This document shows, one piece after another, positions 3,017 through 62,212 of a stretch of DNA of 64,000 nt. The stretch is from Paramagnetospirillum kuznetsovii (GTDB lineage: Bacteria; Pseudomonadota; Alphaproteobacteria; Rhodospirillales; Magnetospirillaceae). The translations under genes were made by a program, and so were the position numbers. Below the pieces are notes generated by a model. That model was not told where the DNA came from and ran no database searches. It was given only the letters and a program-made list of their open reading frames with translations. The stretch covers positions 62,001-126,000 of the forward strand of contig NZ_PGTO01000002.1 of NCBI RefSeq assembly GCF_003284725.1, given 5' to 3'. Positions within the stretch are counted from its first letter, which is position 1. Each line of letters opens with the position of its first letter.

Positions 3017-5719
<2,703 letters not shown>

Positions 5720-5788
5720 AAGCTTCCTCGACGTGAGTGGCCGGGGCCTCCGGTCAGAAGGCCCTTCGCGACCGGCAAGAGATAGAGC

Positions 5789-5820
5789 CCGGCCCGCCTT
5801 CTGTCAATGTCGCGGGCCGG
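5789..5820 (-). terminator. Hairpin downstream of the chemoreceptor gene
   Basis: A 9-base perfect stem (CCGGCCCGC at 5789-5797 with its complement at 5812-5820) follows the chemoreceptor stop codon on the minus strand by 12 bases. No clear T-run follows, so intrinsic termination is uncertain; it may stabilise the mRNA end or separate this gene from secA. Confidence 0.35.
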
Positions 5821-5832
5821 ATGGGGCGGGAT

Positions 5833-8160
5833 TTAGGCGCTTGCCCTGAGACCTCGCGACATTTCTTCCAGCAGGCCGAGCACCTCGTGCGATGCACTGT
5901 TGAGAAGATCGATCTCGGCCGTCGCGCCTTCGCCGTCGCCGCCAATGAACAGTTCAAGCGCCCGCTTGCCGTGGGCATGGACTCTTTGGTGCGGGTCCAG
6001 CAGTTTGCCGTAGGCGGGAAGCTTGGTAAGGCGTTCATCGGCCAGCGTGTCGTACCACTTGCCCAACCGGCAGCTATGGTGGTTGGACAGGCGGTCCGGC
6101 GTCAGATCGTTCTGGCCCAGGATGCGTTCGACGATGGAGCGCTTGAAGCGGACATGATCGTTCTTCGCCACCTGAAGCAAAGCCTCGGCGCTGCCGGATT
6201 TGGCGAAGTCATCGGCCCGCTTGTCCAGCACCGCCGCCGAGTCGCTCATGGCCTTCAGCACGGCGGCGATCTCGCCCAGATTATGGCCCGACACTTGGGC
6301 GATGTCGGCGGCCGACGACGCCACTTCGCTGGTGGCGGCATTCTGCTGGCCCAAGACGGAGGCGATTTCGTGCATGCGCTGGGTGACGCCGTCGATGCGT
6401 CCGGCAATGGCTTCAAGGCCGTCGGTGACTTGGGTCACGGCGCCGCGTCCGTCCTGGGCGGCGGAGCGCGAGCGGTTCATGGCCAGGGTGGCCTCTGCCA
6501 TCTCGGCGGTCAGCCCTTCGATGCGGCAGCGAATATCCACCGTGGCCTTGGCGGTCTGATTGGCCAGGGTCTTGACCTCGCCCGCCACCACGGCGAAGCC
6601 CTTGCCGGATTCTCCCGCCCTGGCGGCCTCGATGGTGGCGTTGAGCGCAAGCAGATTGGTCTGGCCCGCGATGGCCTCGATCTGATCGATGATGGCGGCG
6701 ATTTGACCGGAGGCCGAGCCCAAGGCCTCGATACGCTGGCCGACCGCGTCCACCGCTTCAAGCAGTCCGTCCATGGCGTTGCGCGCGGCGGCGGTAGCGG
6801 CGACGCCGCCGCGTGCCGAGGATTCGGCGTCCGAGGCCTCGCGCGCGGCGATATCGGAGGACTCGGCGATGGTGTGGACCGAGGCCACCAGTTCCTCGAT
6901 GGCGCTGGCGATGGTCTGGCTCTGCTCCGAGGCGCGGCGCACCGAGCCCACCATCTTGGATAGGACCACGGCGGCCTCGTTGCTTTGGATGGCGGCCTCG
7001 ACGATGCCTTCCAACTGGACCTGCATGCCGTCGCGCAGATTTTTCTGACCCGCCTCCAACTCCGCCATGGTGCGCAGTTGCGCTTCTTCCAGCGCCACGG
7101 TGCGGCGGACCTCCTCCTCCACCACGGCGACGGCGCGGGCCATGCGGCCAAGCTCGTCGTCTCGGTCTTGGCCGGGAACGGTGACGCTGAGGTCGCGTTT
7201 GGCGATTTTGTCCAAGGTGTCGCTCATGGACAGGATCGGCCGGGTGATGCCGCGGCTTAGCACGACGGCGGTTATCAGGGCGATGACCAGAACGACGGCG
7301 ATCAGCGACAACATGTCGTTGCGCGCTTCGGCCAATTGGGTGGCGTAATGGCTGGCGTCCATGGCGATTTCGGCCACTCCCAGCGGCTTGCCGCTGTAAT
7401 CCTTCATGGCGCGTCCCAAGATGGCGACGCGCCCGCCGGCGCCGTCCGCGACGGCTTTCAGCACGTCGCGGCCGTCCATGGCCTCGGCGATTTCCGAAGG
7501 TGACAGATTGGACGCGGCCAAGGTTCCGGCGAATTGCTTGAAGCCGTCCTTGCTCTTGACATGCAGCGCGACGTCGACGCCGAAGGATTTCTTGAAGTCG
7601 GCGAAGAACGGCTGGCCGAAGCTGAGGCCGAATTCCACCGACCCCACATGGGCGCCGCCGTCGAACAGCGGAACCAGGCCGCGCACGCCCAGACCGGCGA
7701 CGCCGTATTCCAATCCCTGGGTCGGCTTCTGGCTGGCGTTGGTCTGCACCACCGTCTGACGGATGGCGGACAGGTCGTCGCCGAACTTTGCGGGCGCGTG
7801 GACCCGCAGGAAGGATGTGGCGGGGGGCAGATGGAACTGGAACTGCTCGATGCCGTATTCGGCGGTCATGGCCTTGAACGCGGGGACCATCTGCGCTGCA
7901 AGGGTGTCCCTCTGCCCGGTGGCGACCAGATGGGGAATGCCCGGCAGATTGGCCACCAGGGCGGCCAGGGCGCGGGCCTCGGAGGCAGAGCCGTCGACAG
8001 AGTCGCTCAATTGCTCGAATCGGCCCAGCAGTTCGCGCTTTTCCGCCTGTTCAATCAAGGTGACGGCATGGCGGTTGGCGAACCATCCCAGCAGGGCGGC
8101 GGTACCCACCGACATGAAGACCAAAGCCGTGCCGAAACGGGCGGCGATACCCATGGACAT
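5833..8160 (-). CDS. Methyl-accepting chemotaxis protein with Cache sensor and C-terminal CZB zinc-binding domain
   Basis: Inner-membrane chemoreceptor of 775 aa. The start was set at the ATG preceded by GAGGGGA, which puts the first transmembrane helix at residues 8-28. A periplasmic Cache-type sensor follows (about 30-280; the [15 protein letters not shown] pattern is typical of the Cache_3 group). A second membrane helix (about 283-303) precedes a HAMP domain, and a long coiled-coil MCP signalling domain spans about 420-660 with the tip around [15 protein letters not shown]. The tail (about 660-745) carries [16 protein letters not shown] and HQRVHAHGK, the His/Cys pattern of the chemoreceptor zinc-binding domain, linked in other bacteria to zinc or hypochlorite sensing. 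No che genes adjoin it, so it feeds an array encoded elsewhere. Confidence 0.92.
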
Positions 8161-53302: not shown

Positions 53303-53749
53303 TCAGTTCTTCACGCCGGTTGCGGCGGCAACCGTGGTGGCCGGATCACCGGTCGCCGGACTGACCGGCGGAGCAGCGACCGCGACGACGGGAACCGGAG
53401 CCGGAGGCACCGTCGCGTCGGCGGCGAGACTGGATCCGTCATCCGTCGGGGCGGCGGCGGCTGGCTTGGAATCCGAGGATCCGGTTTGGACGCGCTGGTA
53501 TTCAGCAACCGCCTTCTTGGACGGATACTGATCCTTCTCCTCGCCCGTGGAACCGTCACGCACCACCAGCAATGCCAAGCCGGTGTTGGTGTCGACCTTG
53601 ATAACGGGAGTGGTGAAGGCGATCGCATCGGTCGCGGAGGGCGCCTCCTTCTTCACTTCCTCATTATGGGGAGTGGGTGAATGGGAGTGCGACGCGGCTT
53701 CTGGACCAAGTGTACGGGGGCCGATATTAGCGGCGATTGAGGTGGACAT
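53303..53749 (-). CDS. Hypothetical protein, 148 aa, with weak FlaG-like segment
   Basis: Protein beginning MSTSIAANIGPRTLGPEA with a Ser/His/Pro-rich head. A central block VIKVDTNTGLALLVVRDGSTGEEKDQYPSKKAVAEYQR resembles the beta-strand segment of FlaG-type flagellar proteins, and a long Ala/Pro/Val-rich low-complexity tail follows (about 90-148). It has no signal peptide. An excellent ribosome-binding site (AGGAGGG) sits five bases before the ATG. A flagellar role is only suggested by the short central match and by the family style. Confidence 0.6.
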   Translation of the reverse strand: MSTSIAANIGPRTLGPEAASHSHSPTPHNEEVKKEAPSATDAIAFTTPVIKVDTNTGLALLVVRDGSTGEEKDQYPSKKAVAEYQRVQTGSSDSKPAAAAPTDDGSSLAADATVPPAPVPVVAVAAPPVSPATGDPATTVAAATGVKN

Positions 53750-53882: not shown

Positions 53883-54224
53883 CTAATGTGTCGCCTCGGG
53901 CTCCACGGCATTGCGCTCCACCTGGGGGCGTTTGGAGATCAGCAGCTCCACCGAGGCTTTGGCGAACAGCTTCAATCGCCGGATGCGATATTCAGGCGAC
54001 AAATCCGCAGCCTTGATAACGCCAAGGAAAAAGCGCGACACCTCGGCCAGGGTTTGGTCGCGCAATGCGACGTCGTCGGCGCGGCGTAGCAAAAGATTGA
54101 CGAAATCCTGGGTGCGATGCATCAGGGCGATACCGTCATCCAGGGCATCGATGGCAAAGCACATCTCGTCGTAGAGTGTCTGCTGGTCCTCGTCGAGGAC
54201 GATATCGCCTTCCGCCGCCGCCAT
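53883..54224 (-). CDS. Hypothetical helical protein, 113 aa
   Basis: Acidic, almost entirely helical protein. It begins MAAAEGDIVLDEDQQTLYDEMCFAIDALDDGIALMHRTQDFVNLLLRRADDVALRDQ and ends in a charged tail. No signal or membrane segment is present, and the family is not recognised. The start at 54224 is preferred because of the preceding GGGGCGG; a longer reading to 54311 would run across the intergenic region. It follows the acyl-CoA synthetase-like gene on the same strand with about 43 bases between. Confidence 0.6.
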   Translation of the reverse strand: MAAAEGDIVLDEDQQTLYDEMCFAIDALDDGIALMHRTQDFVNLLLRRADDVALRDQTLAEVSRFFLGVIKAADLSPEYRIRRLKLFAKASVELLISKRPQVERNAVEPEATH

Positions 54225-54267: not shown

Positions 54268-55932
54268 TCATTTTCGTTGAGACCGCCAGCGTTCTTCGCT
54301 GGTTGGGGCATCCAGTCGAAGGGGCCTCGCCATCAGTTCGTCGCGCAGGATGCTGCCGTCCACCGCCAGCGGCAGCGAGTCGACCAACTCCACGCGTCGC
54401 GGACACTCCGTCCCCCCGCGCCGTAGGGTGATCCAAGCCTTCAGTTGCTCGGCCAAGTCGCCATCGGCGGCATTCCTTGCCACCACGAAGGCACGCAACT
54501 CGCCGTCGGCCAAGGCGATGACGCCGGATTTTTCCACCAGCGGATGAGCGTCCAGGGCCGCTTCAACCTCGTCCAGGCGCACGGGCAGGCCCCGGATCAT
54601 CACGACGTCGTCCGGCTGGGCCAAGGGTTCGGGCCAGATGTAATTGTCCAGATCCCGGCACCCCAGGCGACCGGTCAGCAGCCAACCGGCGACGCGGCGG
54701 GCGGGGCCTTCCACCCGGTCGCCCCAATAGCCGAGGAAGCTGCCCGGCGCATTGGGGGAAACCGCCAGGATGCCCCGCTCTCCGGCTTTCACGGCCTTGC
54801 CGCGCTCGTCGGTCGCCTCGATGGTCAGTCCAGGCGCGGTGCGGCCGGGCGACGGAGGACGCAACTCCATCAATCCCGCCAGATTGGCGGCCACCGCGCC
54901 GGTTTCCAGCACGCCCCAAGCCTCGTTGGCATGAATGCCGAACACCTTGATCACCCGCTCGTGCAGATCCTCGTCCAGGGGGTCCGGTCCGCTGGCGATG
55001 GCGCGTGGCATGGCGTGGGGGCGATTGGCGGCGGCTTCGCATAGCGCGGCCAGATGGACCGGCGGCAAATAGGCGGCGCGCACGCCGTGGCGCGACATGA
55101 TGTCCAGGGCATGGCCCGGATGGAACCCTCCCATGCTTGCGACCGTCGGGCTGGCCACCACCGGCACGCCGTGATGCCAAGCCGGAAGGACCGCCCGGAA
55201 CAGGGCCTCGCCGGTCATCCAATCGGCCGATGTCCAGGTAATGTCGCCGAACTGGGGGAACAGGCCCATGGACAGTTCCACCGCGGGCAGGCCGCCTACC
55301 ATGGCCCGGTGGGGCAGTACCGCCCCGGGCGGCTTGCCGCTGGCATGGGCAGGATAAAAGATGAAGGCCGGATGACCGGCGGGGGTGACCAGCGGCGCGA
55401 AGCTGTCGGAAGCCTTTTCGACGCTGGCCCACATCTCGGCGATTCCGGGGCCGCCGCCATTGGGCGACAGCACCGGTCCGAGGCCGGTCAGCGACGCGCG
55501 AATCTCCGCCAGGGCCGGAATCACGGTGGGGTCGATCACCGCCGCAATCGCGCCGCTATTGGCCAATCGCCAACCCAGCGGCTCGGCCCCGAGGGCGGTG
55601 GGAATGGGCACCGCCACCGCTCCCATGCGGGTGACCGCCAGCAAGGTGACGGCGGCCTCCAGTCCGGCGGGCAGCGCCAAGGCGACCCGGTCGCCGGGGG
55701 TGACGCCCAGGGCGTCGAGCACATTGGCCAGACGGTTGGCCAATAGCCGCAGCACATGGAAGGTATAGCGCTCCACCTCGCCGTCGGCGCCCTCGACGAT
55801 CAAGGCGGTACGGTGGCCGTCGGCGCTGCCCATGGTCTGGCGGTCGCAGACGTCGAACGCCAGATTATAGCGGTCGGGAATGCGCCACTTGAAGGTTCGA
55901 CAGGCTTCCTCGTAACTGCGGGGATTGTTCAT
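54268..55932 (-). CDS. AMP-dependent ligase (acyl-CoA synthetase)-like protein with degenerate catalytic motifs
   Basis: Protein of 554 aa with the overall ANL-superfamily layout: an N-terminal half resembling acetyl/medium-chain acyl-CoA synthetases (TFKWRIPDRYNLAFDVCD, GDRVALALPAGLEAAVTLLAVTRMGAVAVPI) and a small C-terminal domain. The phosphate-binding loop, normally TSGTTGxPKG, reads YPAHASGKPPGAV. The AMP motif YGxTE is replaced by NEAWGVLETG. The A10 Lys (PRTxxGK) is replaced by LPLAVDGSILRDEL. It is therefore probably not a normal adenylating enzyme. Its ATG overlaps the FkbM stop (ATGA); it is the last gene of a four-gene operon. Confidence 0.8.
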   Translation of the reverse strand: MNNPRSYEEACRTFKWRIPDRYNLAFDVCDRQTMGSADGHRTALIVEGADGEVERYTFHVLRLLANRLANVLDALGVTPGDRVALALPAGLEAAVTLLAVTRMGAVAVPIPTALGAEPLGWRLANSGAIAAVIDPTVIPALAEIRASLTGLGPVLSPNGGGPGIAEMWASVEKASDSFAPLVTPAGHPAFIFYPAHASGKPPGAVLPHRAMVGGLPAVELSMGLFPQFGDITWTSADWMTGEALFRAVLPAWHHGVPVVASPTVASMGGFHPGHALDIMSRHGVRAAYLPPVHLAALCEAAANRPHAMPRAIASGPDPLDEDLHERVIKVFGIHANEAWGVLETGAVAANLAGLMELRPPSPGRTAPGLTIEATDERGKAVKAGERGILAVSPNAPGSFLGYWGDRVEGPARRVAGWLLTGRLGCRDLDNYIWPEPLAQPDDVVMIRGLPVRLDEVEAALDAHPLVEKSGVIALADGELRAFVVARNAADGDLAEQLKAWITLRRGGTECPRRVELVDSLPLAVDGSILRDELMARPLRLDAPTSEERWRSQRK

Positions 55933-56795
55933 TCCAGCGGCACGTCCTGACCCATATAGGTGGAGGCGTATCGAGTCCCCAGGCGACGATCGTGCTCGAT
56001 CAACAGCCGCAGCACCACATCCAGGCTCTGATAGACATCGTGCAAGATGGTCGCCATGCGCAGCAGTTGTCCGGCGTCCAATTGATCGAAGGCCATGAAG
56101 TCGCGCATGAAAATGGCATCGGCGTCCACCACTTGGCTGAGGCCGCGCGCGATATTGCCTTCCACCACCATGGGCTTGAGGGCGCGGGTGAAGGGTTGGG
56201 GCCAGAACCGGTGCAGGATGAAGCCCCGGCCGCGCAGAAACTGCTCCACCTCGGAAAAGAGAGGCTGATTTTCATAAAGCGGCAGGAACTCCACCTCTGT
56301 CTGAATCACCAGGCAATCTTTCAGGCGGTTGGGGGCGTTCTGGAACACCATCAACTCGCCGCCCTGAATGTCGATCTTCAGGAAGTCGAGCCGCTTGACC
56401 TGGGGAACATCATCCAGCCGGATCGTCTTGACCTGTTCGGTGCGCACGATCCTGGCCCAGTCGCTGAAGCCGTGAAAATACTTGTACAGCGCCTGATTGG
56501 GAGTGAGCAGCGAGCTCATGCCGGAGGCCTGGCAAAGATTCAGCGTATGGGTTTGCCCATCGCCCACCGCATGGGGCAGATAGGTTTCGTTCGGGCCTTT
56601 CTTTCGCTTCAACTTGGCGAGCGCGTCCGAATTGGGTTCGAAGCCGATCAGGCGTGCGCCCTTGCGGGCCAGCAGCGCCTTATAGGGCGGGTTGCCGTCG
56701 ATGGGATTGGCTCCCACATCGACGATATTGACGATCACGTCGATGCCAAGAATCTTGGACAGGGGCCGGATAGCGGACTGACTCATGAACGTCAT
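55929..56795 (-). CDS. FkbM-family methyltransferase
   Basis: SAM methyltransferase of 288 aa of the FkbM type, which methylate sugar or polyketide hydroxyls. The SAM motif is NIVDVGANPIDGNPPYKALL near residue 20, then LIGFEPNSDALAKL, and the family motif DFLKIDIQGGELMVFQNAP near 135. The C-terminal 80 residues extend beyond the core and are helical. ATG 56795 overlaps the stop of the upstream TM1410-like gene (ATGA); a second ATG nine bases later is possible. The substrate is unknown; the operon partners suggest an extracellular glycan or surface product. Confidence 0.85.
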   Translation of the reverse strand: MTFMSQSAIRPLSKILGIDVIVNIVDVGANPIDGNPPYKALLARKGARLIGFEPNSDALAKLKRKKGPNETYLPHAVGDGQTHTLNLCQASGMSSLLTPNQALYKYFHGFSDWARIVRTEQVKTIRLDDVPQVKRLDFLKIDIQGGELMVFQNAPNRLKDCLVIQTEVEFLPLYENQPLFSEVEQFLRGRGFILHRFWPQPFTRALKPMVVEGNIARGLSQVVDADAIFMRDFMAFDQLDAGQLLRMATILHDVYQSLDVVLRLLIEHDRRLGTRYASTYMGQDVPLE

Positions 56796-58015
56796 CTTCC
56801 CAAGGGCATCAGGTCTTCGAACCACAGATAGGTGCCGACATCGTCGAACATGACGCCGTCGAAGCCCAGATCCATGATGCCCGCCAGATACTTGCCCAGC
56901 ACGCCGCGCCATTCGCCGCTGCCGGTGTCGGTGATGAACACGCCGGGCGGCTCGTCATGGGCGAAGACGAAGGCGGGATTGCCCACATCCCAGTCGCGCA
57001 GCCAGTACCAGCGCCAGTCATAGGCCCGCCCGATGGGCATCGCCGCCATGACGAGACGCCGCGCCCCCAGCTTCTTGAACTTCAGCTTGGCGATGTCGGA
57101 TTTGACCAGCAGGTCCGACGAGCGATGGGCCACGTCCACCACCACCATGTCGTAATTGGTATTGGCGACGGCGTCCATGAACTTGCCCTTGGTGCCGAAG
57201 CGGTCCGAGCGCAGCACCGGCAGCCAGTTGCGCGCCGTGGCCAGGCTCAGCACCTCGGCGGGGTTCTCATAGGCGGCATGGGCGCGGGGCGTATCGTCCA
57301 ACGGCGTCTCGCCGGTCTTGGCGAAGGTGGGCGTCTTGTCGCGGGCACCCGCCCGGAAGGCGGCCTCGGTCTCCTTGGCGTCGGCGCAGAAATCCACCGA
57401 CAGCACATTGCGGCCCTCGTCGCGCATGGCGGCGATGGCGTAAAGCGCGCGCCGTTGCACCTCGGCACGCTCCTGCTTCACCTTGATCTCGGTGGCCTTG
57501 CGCAGTTCCTCGGTGGGGTCGTTGCTGAACGGCCCCATTTCCACCGGGGTGGGGGTGCGGTGGATGCCGCGCCTGCGTTCGGCGTCCAGCTCGGCGTCCA
57601 GGTCGCGCCGGGCCTTGACCAGTTCGGCCAAGGGCTTGTCGAATTTGTAGGGGCCGCAATACAGGCCATCCACCACGATGGCGTCCAGGGTTTGGACCAA
57701 CTGGCGATAGGTGGCGCGCAACGGCAGGCGCTTGATGAAGTTGGTGCCCTGGGGGTCGCGGATATCTTCCCACTCCACCTCGATCTCGCCCTTGACCAGC
57801 AGCTCCGAGCCGCCGCGCATCATCACCTGGAAATTGGGGCTGCGCTTCTTGGCGTAGCGGGCCAGTTCCAGGATCACGTCGCGGGTCTGGTCGCGGAAAT
57901 TGGGGATGCGCTCCATGGGCGGCGGCACGAAGTCGCGCGGCTTGTCCAGCGCCAGGGCGGGCGAGGCCAGGGCCAGGGTGAGGGCGAGGATTCCCCCCAA
58001 TAGTCCTCTTCTCAT
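56792..58015 (-). CDS. Secreted TM1410/GH114-like (alpha-galactosaminidase-type) protein
   Basis: Protein of 407 aa with a signal peptide of about 22 residues (MRRGLLGGILALTLALASPALAL). It shows the TM1410/COG2342 TIM-barrel pattern related to endo-alpha-1,4-polygalactosaminidases: FQVMMRGGSELLV, DAIVVDGLYCG, VLSVDFCAD, YDMVVVDVAHRSSDLL, VMAAMPIGRAYDWRWYW and the C-terminal LAGIMDLGFDGVMFDDVGTYLWFED, with Asp residues placed as barrel-end catalytic candidates. It contains an insert rich in charged helices (about 120-190). ATG 58015 overlaps the FAD oxidoreductase stop (ATGA). Export and substrate are inferred. Confidence 0.78.
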   Translation of the reverse strand: MRRGLLGGILALTLALASPALALDKPRDFVPPPMERIPNFRDQTRDVILELARYAKKRSPNFQVMMRGGSELLVKGEIEVEWEDIRDPQGTNFIKRLPLRATYRQLVQTLDAIVVDGLYCGPYKFDKPLAELVKARRDLDAELDAERRRGIHRTPTPVEMGPFSNDPTEELRKATEIKVKQERAEVQRRALYAIAAMRDEGRNVLSVDFCADAKETEAAFRAGARDKTPTFAKTGETPLDDTPRAHAAYENPAEVLSLATARNWLPVLRSDRFGTKGKFMDAVANTNYDMVVVDVAHRSSDLLVKSDIAKLKFKKLGARRLVMAAMPIGRAYDWRWYWLRDWDVGNPAFVFAHDEPPGVFITDTGSGEWRGVLGKYLAGIMDLGFDGVMFDDVGTYLWFEDLMPLGR

Positions 58016-59121
58016 GCCAGCAAATCTCCAACGTGGCGGGCGATGGCAAGACAGGATGTCAGCCCAGGGCTTTCGATTCCGTAAAGCGCCGCCACGCCGG
58101 GGGCGCCGGTCTCGGCGGGGCCGTGGAGGACGAAGTCGCGGGCGGGCTCGCCCTCGGCCTGGATCTTGGGACGGATCCCGGCATAGGCGGGTTCCAGCGC
58201 GCCGTCCTTCAGGCCGGGCCAATAGCGGCGGATGGCGGCGTAGAAGGCGTCGCCCCGGCGGGGATCGACCACGTAGTCCTCGCGCGCCACCCATTCCACG
58301 TCGGGGCCGAAGCGGCCGCGACCGGCCAGATCCAGGGTGAAATGCACCCCCAGACCGGCGGCCACCGGCACCGGATAGACCAGATGGGTGAACGGCGTCT
58401 TGCCGGTCAGGCCGAAATAATTGCCCTTGCACAGATAGGCGGGCGGGACATTTTTCAGGCCCAGGGCCTGCCCGAGGCGGGGGCTGGACAGACCGGCGCA
58501 GACCACGACGCGATCGACCAGCAGGGTCATGGGCTCGGCGCCGCCCACCCGGATCAGGGTGCCGGATTCGGTGGCGCGGCCTTCCAGGACCGGCGACTTG
58601 AAGACCACCGACGCCCCCCGGTCCTCCGCCTCGCCCTGCAGGGCCAGCATCAGCCCGTGGGTGTCGATGATGCCGGTGTCGGGCGAGAACAGCGCGGCGA
58701 CGCACTTGACCTTGGGCTCCAGGGCACGGGCCTCGGCGGCGGAAATGGCGGTCAGCCCTTCGACGCCGTTGTCGCGGCCCTTGGCGAGAATGGCGTCCAG
58801 CGCCCTGGCTTCGTCGGCGTCGGTGGCGACAATCAGCTTGCCGGTCATGCGGAAGGTGACGCCCCGGCTGGCGGCATAGTCGCGCAGCATGCGGTTGCCC
58901 GCGACGCAGAGCCGTGCCTTCAGGCTGTCCTTGGGATAATACATGCCGGCGTGGATCACCTCGCTGTTGCGCGACGAGATGCCCGAGCCGATGGCGCCCT
59001 CGGCTTCCAGCACCAGCACCTCGCGTCCGGCCAGCGCCAGCTGGCGGGCGACGGCAAGCCCGACCACGCCTGCGCCGATCACCACGCTGTCGACCCGTTC
59101 CGCCCCGATGTCCGTCAACAC
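58012..59121 (-). CDS. FAD-dependent oxidoreductase, L-2-hydroxyglutarate dehydrogenase-like
   Basis: Flavoprotein of about 369 aa. The FAD-binding motif VIGAGVVGLAVARQLALAGREVLVLEAE is at the N-terminus, followed by GSGISSRNSEVIHAGMYYP, characteristic of the LhgO/L2HGDH group of DAO-fold oxidases. The C-terminus has GIESPGLTSCLAIARHVGDLL. No good ATG precedes the Rossmann fold; GTG 59121 with GGAAGA just upstream is used (TTG 59133 is possible). It is the first gene of the four-gene operon and divergent from the molybdopterin oxidoreductase, with about 125 bases between starts. The substrate is probably a 2-hydroxy acid, inferred from the family. Confidence 0.83.
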   Translation of the reverse strand: MLTDIGAERVDSVVIGAGVVGLAVARQLALAGREVLVLEAEGAIGSGISSRNSEVIHAGMYYPKDSLKARLCVAGNRMLRDYAASRGVTFRMTGKLIVATDADEARALDAILAKGRDNGVEGLTAISAAEARALEPKVKCVAALFSPDTGIIDTHGLMLALQGEAEDRGASVVFKSPVLEGRATESGTLIRVGGAEPMTLLVDRVVVCAGLSSPRLGQALGLKNVPPAYLCKGNYFGLTGKTPFTHLVYPVPVAAGLGVHFTLDLAGRGRFGPDVEWVAREDYVVDPRRGDAFYAAIRRYWPGLKDGALEPAYAGIRPKIQAEGEPARDFVLHGPAETGAPGVAALYGIESPGLTSCLAIARHVGDLLA

Positions 59122-59246: not shown

Positions 59247-61310
59247 ATGCAAGTGACCGCCGAAACCCGCCCCTCCGTCTGCCCCCACGACTGCCCCAGC
59301 GCCTGCGCCTTGGAGGTCGAGGTGCTGCCCGGCGACAGGATCGGCCGGGTGCACGGGGCCGCCATGCCCTATGTGGACGGCGTCATCTGCGCCAAGGTCG
59401 CCCGCTACGCCGAGCGGGTCCATCACCCGGACCGGGTGCTGCATCCCCTCCGTCGTGTCGGCGCCAAGGGCGAGGGGCGTTTCGAACGCATCACCTGGGG
59501 CGAGGCGCTGGACGAGATCGCCGCCCGCTTCAAGGATGCGGCGGAAAGGCTGGGGCCGGAAACCGTGTGGCCCTATTTCTATGCGGGCACCATGGGCCAT
59601 GTGCAGCAATCGGGCATCAACCGGCTGCGCCGCGTCATGGGCTATTCGGGGCAATTGAAGACCATCTGCGCCTCGGCCGCCGGAGCGGGCTGGGCGGGGG
59701 GCGTGGGCTCCAAATGGGGGGTGCCGCCCCAGGAAATCGCCCAGAGCGGGCTGGTGGTGGTGTGGGGCGCCAATCCCGCCGCTACCCAGGTCCAGTTGAT
59801 GGGATTGATCAAGCAGGCCAAGACGGCGAACGGCGCCAAGCTGGTGGTGGTCGATCCCTATCGCACCGCCACGGCGGACAAGGCCGACCTGCATCTGATG
59901 TTGCGTCCCGGCACCGACGGGGCGCTGGCCTCGGCGGTGATGCATGTGCTGTTCAGGGACGATTTGGCCGACCGCGACTATCTGGCCCGCTACACCGATT
60001 GCCCCGAGCGGCTGGAACGTCATCTGGAGAGCCGCACCCCCGCCTGGGCCGCCGCCATCACCGGCCTGACCGAGGCGGAGATCGAGGCTTTCGCCAAGCT
60101 TTACGGCGGCGTGCCCAATTCCTTTCTGCGGGTGGGCTATGGCTTTTCCCGCTCGCGCAACGGCGCCGCCAATCTGCACGCGGTCAGTTGCCTGCCCGCC
60201 GTGACCGGCGCCTGGAAGCACAAGGGCGGCGGCGCGATGCAAAGCACCAGCGGCGTCTTCGATCTGGCGCGAACCCTGCTGGACGGATTGGACGTGCCGC
60301 AACGGCCGGTGCGCAGCCTGGACATGAGCCGCATCGGCCCCATCCTCACCGGCGACGTGGGCAAGGGGCCGCCGGTCACCGCCATGCTGATGCAGAACAC
60401 CAATCCGGCGGTGGTGGCGCCCGACAGTGGCCTGGTGCGGCAGGGTCTGGCCCGCGACGATCTGTTCTTATGCGTCCACGAACAGGTGATGACCGAGACC
60501 GCCCGGTTCGCCGATATGGTGCTGCCCGCCACCACCAGCATGGAACATTCCGACCTCTACACCTCCTACGGCCACACCTTTCTGCAAGTGGCCAAGCCGG
60601 TGATCGCGCCCCAGGGCGAATCCCGTTCCAACCATCGGGTCATCTGCGATCTGGCGGCGCGGCTGGGGGCGGTGCATCCCGGCTTCGAGATGGACGAATG
60701 GGAGATGATGGATCAGGTGCTGGATGCCTCCGACCTGCCCAAGGCGGCGGAGATTCACGCCATGGGCTGGCTGAACTGCGGCAAGGTGTTCGACGACGCC
60801 CATTTCCTGTCGGGCTTCGGCCATCCCGACGGCCGCTTCCGTTTCGCGCCGGAATGGGGCGCGGAGGGGCTGCCCGAACTGCCCGATCATTTCGACGTGA
60901 TCGAGAATGCCGATGCCGCGCACCCCTTCCGCCTGATCACCCCGCCGTCGCGCCACTTCCTCAACTCCACCTTCACCGAGACCCCCACTTCCCTGGCCCA
61001 GGCCAAGGAGCCGACGGCGCTGATCCATGCCGAGGATTGCGCCGCCCTGGGGCTGGAAAGCGGCGGCATGGTCCGTATCGGTAACGCCAAGGGCTCGGTC
61101 TTGGTGCGGGTGGCGGCGACCTCCGGCATCGCCCGTGGCGTGGTGGTGGTGGAAAGCATCTGGCCGGACCGCCATTTCGCCGAGGGGCTCGGCATCAACC
61201 ACCTGACCAGCGCCGACGCGGCGCTTCCCGCCGGAGGCGCGGTCTTTCACGACACCAAGGTTTGGCTGAAGGCGATGCTTCCGGCCGACGACGATGAAAA
61301 TGGAGCGTAG
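59247..61310 (+). CDS. Molybdopterin-dependent oxidoreductase (DMSO-reductase family, formate dehydrogenase-like)
   Basis: Protein of about 687 aa. The N-terminal [4Fe-4S] motif is VCPHDCPSAC (Cys12, Cys16, Cys20) with the fourth Cys48 in GVICAKV and the electron-transfer Lys50. The molybdopterin-guanine dinucleotide domains follow: FYAGTMGHVQQSGINRLRRVMG, VVVWGANPAATQ, MLMQNTNPAVVAPDSG and a C-terminal beta-barrel (LITPPSRHFLNSTF, VRIGNAKGSVLVRVAA). No Tat signal is present, so it is cytosolic. ATG 59247 is used; GTG 59253 has better spacing from AAAAGGA. The substrate cannot be inferred. No partner subunits or cofactor genes adjoin it. Confidence 0.85.
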   Translation: MQVTAETRPSVCPHDCPSACALEVEVLPGDRIGRVHGAAMPYVDGVICAKVARYAERVHHPDRVLHPLRRVGAKGEGRFERITWGEALDEIAARFKDAAERLGPETVWPYFYAGTMGHVQQSGINRLRRVMGYSGQLKTICASAAGAGWAGGVGSKWGVPPQEIAQSGLVVVWGANPAATQVQLMGLIKQAKTANGAKLVVVDPYRTATADKADLHLMLRPGTDGALASAVMHVLFRDDLADRDYLARYTDCPERLERHLESRTPAWAAAITGLTEAEIEAFAKLYGGVPNSFLRVGYGFSRSRNGAANLHAVSCLPAVTGAWKHKGGGAMQSTSGVFDLARTLLDGLDVPQRPVRSLDMSRIGPILTGDVGKGPPVTAMLMQNTNPAVVAPDSGLVRQGLARDDLFLCVHEQVMTETARFADMVLPATTSMEHSDLYTSYGHTFLQVAKPVIAPQGESRSNHRVICDLAARLGAVHPGFEMDEWEMMDQVLDASDLPKAAEIHAMGWLNCGKVFDDAHFLSGFGHPDGRFRFAPEWGAEGLPELPDHFDVIENADAAHPFRLITPPSRHFLNSTFTETPTSLAQAKEPTALIHAEDCAALGLESGGMVRIGNAKGSVLVRVAATSGIARGVVVVESIWPDRHFAEGLGINHLTSADAALPAGGAVFHDTKVWLKAMLPADDDENGA

Positions 61311-61405
61311 CGACTGGCGCATTGCGCGCCCGCCGCTCGTGCGGCGAAAGCCAAGCATCCCGGAGGGATGCGCCCGGCGACTGAGGGACTGAAAGGAATT
61401 TTCCC

Positions 61406-62212
61406 ATGACCAAGCGCGCGCATATCGTGGTGGTCGGCAACGAGAAGGGCGGCACCGGCAAGTCCACCGTCTCCATGCATCTGATCATCAGCCTGCTGGA
61501 ACGCGGCCTGTCGGTGGGCAGCATCGATCTCGACGCCCGCCAGGCCACCCTGACCCGCTATATCCGCAACCGCCAAGCCCGCAAGGATCTGGCCGAGTTG
61601 GGACTGCCGCTGCCCGAGCATGTGGCGCTGCCGCCCACCGACGATCGGGCGGGCGACGAGGCCAAGTTGAACGAGACCTTCGCTCATATGGCGGCCACCC
61701 ATGACGTGGTGGTGATCGACACCCCCGGCTCGGATCACTATCTGTCGCGGCTGGGCCATTCCTTCGCCGATACGCTGGTGACGCCGCTCAACGACTCGCT
61801 GGTGGATCTGGATGTGCTGGCCCTGGTGGAGCCCGGCACCATGAAGATCCAGCGGCCCAGCCATTACTCCGAGATGGTGTGGGAGACCAAGAAGGCCCGC
61901 GCCATTCGCGGCGAAAAGGCGGTGGTGGACTGGATCGTGCTGCGCAACCGGCTGTCCAATCTGGACGCGCGGAACAAGCGCGACATGGAAAAGCTGCTGG
62001 GCGATCTGTCCAAGCGGGTGGGGTTCCGCGTCATTCCCGGCCTGGGCGAGCGGGTGATCTACCGCTCCATGTTCCTGGAAGGCCTGACCCTGCTGGACCT
62101 GCGCCAGAAGATCATGGGCTTCGAATTCTCCATGAGCCATGTGGCCGCCCGCCAGGAATTGCGGACCCTGGTGGATGCCATTGGCCTCAATCATTTGAAG
62201 CCCACCGTTTAG
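61406..62212 (+). CDS. mipZ: Division-plane positioning ATPase MipZ
   Basis: ParA/MinD-type ATPase of 268 aa that forms polar gradients via ParB and inhibits FtsZ away from mid-cell. The deviant Walker A is VVGNEKGGTGKSTVSMHL (near residues 10-27), and IDLDARQATLTRYIRNRQA and VVIDTPGSDHYLSRLGH follow. The regions VVDWIVLRNRLSNLDARN and KRVGFRVIPGLGERVIYR are MipZ-specific rather than ParA. AAAGGA precedes the ATG. Confidence 0.94.
   Translation: MTKRAHIVVVGNEKGGTGKSTVSMHLIISLLERGLSVGSIDLDARQATLTRYIRNRQARKDLAELGLPLPEHVALPPTDDRAGDEAKLNETFAHMAATHDVVVIDTPGSDHYLSRLGHSFADTLVTPLNDSLVDLDVLALVEPGTMKIQRPSHYSEMVWETKKARAIRGEKAVVDWIVLRNRLSNLDARNKRDMEKLLGDLSKRVGFRVIPGLGERVIYRSMFLEGLTLLDLRQKIMGFEFSMSHVAARQELRTLVDAIGLNHLKPTV

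Follow-up and report, generated by a model that had tools for sequence, protein, structure and literature searches.

As reported in PMC12054363, TM1410 was assigned to glycoside hydrolase family GH191 in 2025 with Asp156 and Glu225 as putative catalytic residues, the environmental member Env-GH191 cuts Pel, a galactosamine-containing polymer, and TmGH191 itself did not show hydrolysis on the substrate tried. A TM1410-like protein is encoded in the 64,000-nucleotide stretch of Paramagnetospirillum kuznetsovii DNA analysed here (the window; contig NZ_PGTO01000002.1, positions 62,001 to 126,000). It lies in a row of four minus-strand genes that also encode a DAO-family flavoprotein, an FkbM-family methyltransferase and a degenerate ligase-like protein with the fold of acyl-CoA synthetases, here called the pseudo-ligase. 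A first-pass annotation had described the row as four genes joined by three ATGA start/stop overlaps. Genes and overlaps are present as stated (GGCATGAGA, AAGATGACG and GGAATGAAC at the three junctions), and the family assignments (DAO, TM1410-like, FkbM, AMP-binding) are borne out by Pfam and NCBIfam scores. The conserved unit is best read as a three-gene operon around a more widespread two-gene core, in which the TM1410-like barrel protein is circularly permuted and the pseudo-ligase is kept by purifying selection. The annotation knew of no described pathway with this combination. The searches made of the literature on TM1410/GH114/GH191, on barrel permutation and on pseudoenzyme ligases likewise yielded no pathway, and no paper seen in them described the operon or the permuted family; a search by guessed locus tags of strain AMB-1 brought up nothing relevant.

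The barrel protein, whose closest named relatives are found in Magnetospirillum, Phaeospirillum and Paramagnetospirillum, scored 67.3 bits on TIGR01370 (MJ1477/TM1410), below the curated cut-off of 181.25, and the match spanned residues 257-399 only. With a 32-row profile and phmmer, the match to TM1410 fell into three segments whose order is rotated (E 2.8e-30 for the profile), with profile positions 34-65, 98-181 and 262-341 corresponding to TM1410 151-182, 189-276 and 61-140. Only the TM1410 segment 61-140 was significant singly (independent E-value, i-E, 3e-21), the others reaching i-E 0.2 and 0.8. A 70-row barrel profile matched canonical GH191 proteins from genomes of the same phylum (L173-L175) in two pieces with scores of 124.9 and 57.3, and the doubled GH191 alignment in one 254-column match with a score of 168.7. 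The AlphaFold2 model, which the annotation had proposed to build, was confident (predicted local distance difference test, pLDDT, 93.1), and Foldseek aligned 146-151 of its columns to TM1410 chains with a root-mean-square deviation of 2.3-2.6 Å. Because of the rotated segments, the continuous match to the doubled alignment and the alignment of the model, the protein is, as judged from profiles and prediction, a circularly permuted GH191 relative. This permutation is also why family models match only part of the barrel domain. The barrel is not in the canonical strand order of GH191, and its new C-terminus lies 16 residues past the nucleophile position.

In an alignment numbered via the 9eux chain, the GH191 nucleophile D156 corresponds to D391 and the acid/base residue E225 to D116. 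Position 391 holds Asp in 51 of 70 members, the window protein among them, and another residue in 19; all 15 barrel sequences of the pseudo-ligase clade have the Asp. At position 116, Asp is found in 41 members, Asn in 13, Glu in seven and another residue in nine, and the window protein lacks the Glu of GH191. The Glu/Asp pair of GH191 is retained in 5/70 members, and by this alignment the permuted family has mostly lost it. The barrel segments and, in part, the nucleophile Asp are thus common to the permuted family and to GH191 (TM1410, Env-GH191). Unlike GH191, the family has the rotated strand order, a signal-peptide-like start, few acid/base Glu residues and a set of invariant residues of its own. 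Those found in all 70 members include R45, N287, D289, K314, G317, R320, Y337, D386 and G387. In the model, N287/D289, R320 and D386 immediately precede the strands 290-293, 321-327 and 387-391, respectively, which hints that a conserved cluster lies across the barrel from the GH191 active site, on the other face. The barrel protein is probably secreted, given the signal-peptide-like N-termini seen by eye in most of 76 barrel loci, a count biased by the choice of starts, for which hydrophobicity was one of the criteria.

The pseudo-ligase was matched by the Pfam models AMP-binding (135 bits) and AMP-binding_C and so has the domains of an acyl-CoA synthetase. Its predicted structure, also proposed by the annotation, showed a normal two-domain fold (pLDDT 92.3) with 5u2a and Acs as best Foldseek matches. 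The P-loop, the Asp of the TGD motif, the catalytic Lys and the TE motif have known roles in adenylate-forming enzymes. These positions were compared in 26 degenerate sequences including the window's, 23 of which come from the 60 relative genomes of the main comparison (group A), in 12 relatives with intact motifs encoded close to a barrel gene (group B) and in four full sequences from five further loci (group C). All 12 group B sequences have the P-loop residues Thr194 and Lys202, the ribose Asp422 (TGD) and the catalytic Lys527. In group A, Thr194 and Asp422 are absent from all 26 sequences, Lys202 is present in three, and Lys527 in two of the 24 with a C-terminal domain. Tyr339 is replaced by Trp in 26/26, and Glu343 of the TE motif is kept in 24/26. 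The window protein has none of the P-loop, TGD Asp and catalytic Lys that together mark an AMP-forming acyl-CoA synthetase, and the degenerate state noted by the annotation is thus confirmed. Group C keeps Lys202 and Asp422, its P-loop is altered, and Arg replaces the catalytic Lys. Compared with acyl-/acetyl-CoA synthetases (PRK04319-like; PDB 9g79, 5u2a), the pseudo-ligase has the same whole two-domain fold and length, but has lost the P-loop, ribose Asp and catalytic Lys and gained a new tail. The best reading of these sequences is a non-catalytic ligand-binding or scaffold protein.

Selection on the genes was estimated from eight listed pairs, two of which are the same two genomes. Pairwise ratios of non-synonymous to synonymous substitution rates (dN/dS, omega) were 0.15-0.23 for the pseudo-ligase, 0.10-0.27 for the flavoprotein and 0.11-0.39 for the barrel gene, with FkbM outside the test. 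The overall range of 0.10-0.39 means that all three are real coding genes, and the pseudo-ligase is kept by purifying selection. Its frame is open over approx. 540-560 codons in 24 of the 26 group A sequences. Arg548 in the tail is present in 26/26 of group A and also in G010 and G023, and falls in a gap in 10/12 of group B and 3/4 of group C. Two copies, L046 and L051, encode no C-terminal domain in any frame, and L046 ends in the conserved tail despite this loss (best E 7e-5). In a tree that also held seven ligases from the genome of the window, the three groups came out together as a single clade (support 100/99, no wider outgroup), and group A is supported by 100/100. The order of the groups is less firm, with a support of 81/61 for A+C and approximately unbiased (AU) test p values of 0.40 for A+B and 0.21 for B+C.

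An insert of 65-66 residues in the barrel protein was found in 23/23 regions with the pseudo-ligase and in 0/18 without it, of which L059 has one of 45 residues. In alignment A2, it is present in 15/15 sequences with the pseudo-ligase, and two of the 55 others bear dissimilar ones, 45 and 84 residues long. A functional link between insert and pseudo-ligase is not claimed, because the two are markers of a single clade and their proteins seem to reside in different compartments.

The flavoprotein was matched by DAO (PF01266) with 213 bits and is the sole match to itself in its own genome at E 0.001. On NF008726 (LhgO) it reached 218 bits, below the cut-off of 299. Its best solved relatives are 3dme with 436 bits ('conserved exported protein'), which we take to be a Bordetella pertussis protein, and 8w75 with 146 bits, presumably Drosophila L2HGDH. 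It thus has the DAO fold in common with LhgO and 3dme but stays below the curated LhgO cut-off, and LhgO-like chemistry may be inferred from these matches.

In the 60 genomes, the flavoprotein and the TM1410-like protein were each matched in 55. Both occur in 54 genomes, neither in four and a single one in two, namely the flavoprotein in G046 and the barrel, at a contig end, in G013. In 43 of the 54 genomes carrying both, the two genes are neighbours on one contig, with their starts under 3.5 kb from each other; G023, among the other 11, is cut by a contig end. Ligase-like matches at a threshold of E 1e-40 were obtained in 31/60 genomes, and 26 of these adjoin the barrel gene, downstream of it. 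All 26 are degenerate wherever the sequence is readable (23 in full, G023 in full, G013 and G010 in part). A closer, intact-type relative is present in G028, G036, G038 and G044; its motifs were read in the first three, and in G044 it lies on a different contig from the flavoprotein/barrel pair. G031 has a distant relative. The link to a degenerate ligase is confined to one family-level clade and the flavoprotein/TM1410-like pair is far more widespread; among 385 genomes drawn from the class, 22 gave a barrel match. Named strains with the trio are Magnetospirillum molischianum DSM 120 (L093), M. fulvum DSM 13234 (L078) and, probably, Paramagnetospirillum magneticum AMB-1 (G009).

Some further contigs carry parts of the arrangement. 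L126, L132, L133, L136 and L144 (at approx. 5-12 kb) have barrel and altered ligase in tandem with an alignment gap of 41-70 bases and no flavoprotein match. Their flanks, inspected by eye, resemble those of the window's relatives in holding mipZ-like and cobC-like genes. A gene for a small membrane protein lies ahead of the barrel gene in L126, L133 and L144. The Rhodospirillales-typical flavoprotein/barrel pair is also found on six contigs labelled as metagenome-assembled genomes of Candidatus Marinimicrobia (L103, L104, L107, L108, L110 and L115), labels that are possibly wrong or misbinned.

We give about even chances to the view that the permuted barrel, the flavoprotein and the pseudo-ligase are a trio with a non-catalytic ligase in an envelope or housekeeping operon, with FkbM as a passenger. 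The barrel protein would be exported and bind an amino-sugar-containing envelope glycan, or, with its Asp/Asp pair, may instead slowly cleave such a glycan. The flavoprotein would oxidise a 2-hydroxy acid in the cytoplasm, and the pseudo-ligase would act there as a non-catalytic ligand binder or scaffold whose tail docks a partner. Several points weigh against this view. The Asp at the acid/base position could still be functional, and the end of L051 is only weakly tail-like (E 7.9). No ligase match at E 1e-40 was obtained in 29/60 genomes. The five group C loci have the barrel/ligase pair and no flavoprotein match, and therefore the three genes are not obligatory together. Catalysis may have been lost once or twice, in groups A and C, and either fits the tree. 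Partner, ligand and activity are all putative, and a single complex of all three proteins is unlikely because the barrel alone has the look of an exported protein.

It is also possible, if doubtful, that this is an operon of convenience whose genes share a promoter and no common process, the flavoprotein serving metabolite repair and the barrel being an envelope protein. Such an arrangement would suit the likely different compartments and the missing flavoprotein of group C. The flavoprotein is alone or non-adjacent in 12 of the 55 genomes having it (some at contig ends), and the first neighbour, mipZ, is often nearby as well. On the other hand, presence and absence of flavoprotein and barrel agree in 58/60 genomes, though both are nearly universal there.

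An alternative in which the ligase-like protein is catalytically active despite its unusual active site appears improbable. The whole predicted fold with its matches to 5u2a and Acs, purifying selection, the TE-motif Glu in 24/26 and the few retained P-loop Lys (3/26) and catalytic Lys residues (2/24) are in keeping with activity. However, the window protein has lost P-loop, ribose Asp and catalytic Lys together, and L046 and L051 do without the C-terminal domain altogether.

The annotation had taken the four genes as a unit that makes, modifies or trims a surface glycan or a secreted metabolite. The FkbM protein is a clear family member with 76.2 bits on PF05050 (Methyltransf_21; cut-off 22.7) and 54.4 bits on TIGR01444 (cut-off 37.7), scoring above the Pfam and NCBIfam cut-offs like other FkbM methyltransferases, but differs from them as a passenger in this operon. 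At this locus it was found in 2/17 genus genomes (G000 and G013), so that this gene is mostly apart from the others in relatives, an outcome that the annotation itself had named as speaking against its unit. Some FkbM match (E 1e-10) was present in 9/17 genus genomes, lying elsewhere in the genome outside G000 and G013. In the 26 pseudo-ligase genomes, the slot between barrel and pseudo-ligase holds FkbM in two, DUF3800 in three, an AAA_16 ATPase in one and nothing recognised in 20. One DUF3800 gene (L034) and the ATPase (L031) were scanned with Pfam, and the remaining DUF3800 genes were named via blastp similarity. Of the four-gene order, the flavoprotein/barrel pair (54/60) and the ligase beside the barrel (26/60) recur, but FkbM (2/26) does not, and the four-gene unit is ruled out by its absence from most relatives' operons. 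The slot looks like an insertion hotspot, and FkbM, a recent insertion, is a passenger and no defining part of the system. A four-gene pathway is accordingly very unlikely, although ATGA overlaps flank FkbM on both sides and Env-GH191 cuts a galactosamine-containing polymer (PMC12054363). The GC content of FkbM (0.589, against 0.66-0.70 in the other three genes) also speaks against it. No glycan gene was consistently present across 41 compared neighbourhoods, and the GH191-like fold alone points to a glycan.

A decaying pseudogene, as which the lost motifs, the two copies without C-terminal domain, a single TAA within the G033 match and the division of the G013 match into two parts could be taken, is scarcely conceivable and is ruled out by the selection test (omega 0.15-0.23), next to the frames open in 24/26 group A sequences and the new invariant residues and tail.

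Slot genes were also collected by region: DUF3800-like genes occur in five distinct genomes (L034 7694-8407, L036, L043, L082 and L083), the AAA_16 ATPase in L031 at 5328-6527 and FkbM in two. The coordinates of the window's features are listed below.

Features of the locus with positions in the window (aa, amino acids)
Feature	Position	Strand	Remarks
L-2-hydroxyglutarate-oxidase-like DAO-family oxidoreductase, dependent on flavin adenine dinucleotide (FAD)	58012..59121	-	369 aa, read here from a GTG start; first gene of conserved trio
GH191/TM1410-like (beta/alpha)8 barrel, circularly permuted, probably secreted	56792..58015	-	407 aa; profile and structure matches
Mostly helical insert of ~65 residues, barrel protein residues 125-189	57449..57643	-	found in the pseudo-ligase clade, by alignment
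FkbM-family methyltransferase, passenger gene	55929..56795	-	288 aa; alternative in-frame ATG three codons on; GC 0.589
Pseudo-ligase of adenylate-forming (acyl-CoA synthetase) fold, lacking P-loop, ribose Asp and catalytic Lys	54268..55932	-	554 aa
Pseudo-ligase C-terminal tail (residues 538-554), conserved	54271..54321	-	alignment
Small open reading frame, next same-strand gene	53883..54224	-	113 aa; relatives at same place in part of genus

The small gene at 53883-54224 has a GC content of 0.596 and begins 43 bases past the ligase stop, so that the unit may exceed four genes and possibly includes it. Scans of it with Pfam and NCBIfam gave no match. Together with 53306-53749 it makes up a pair of small genes 3' of the pseudo-ligase; for each, nine other regions hold relatives, and neither has a Pfam match. 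On the other side, at 59247-62212, a divergent molybdopterin oxidoreductase is followed by mipZ, and a mipZ-bearing cluster is found in 24/41 compared regions; galU and an adjoining gene are nearby in 10/41. Sequences like flgI, fliX and dksA and a tetratricopeptide repeat (TPR) glycosyltransferase were seen by eye near the trio in some relatives. A flagellar or glycosylation context was set aside, since too few relatives show such neighbours. A promoter scan gave three promoter-like sites (0.8 expected), none 5' of the flavoprotein gene, and the count of the terminator scan was at chance level.

Tentatively, the locus may encode a control module linked to the envelope that has not been described in Rhodospirillales before, composed of a permuted, non-hydrolysing GH191 barrel with a new conserved site, a former synthetase turned sensor or scaffold via its new tail, and the flavoprotein. 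The natural permutation of a glycoside-hydrolase barrel across an order is a clean case of the rewiring of a catalytic barrel. The pseudo-ligase, placed firmly by its gene order, exemplifies the loss of catalytic residues from an adenylating enzyme as selection continues, and other genomes offer intact ligase relatives, encoded near the barrel gene, for comparison. Its new tail provides a direct handle on finding the partner of the pseudo-ligase.

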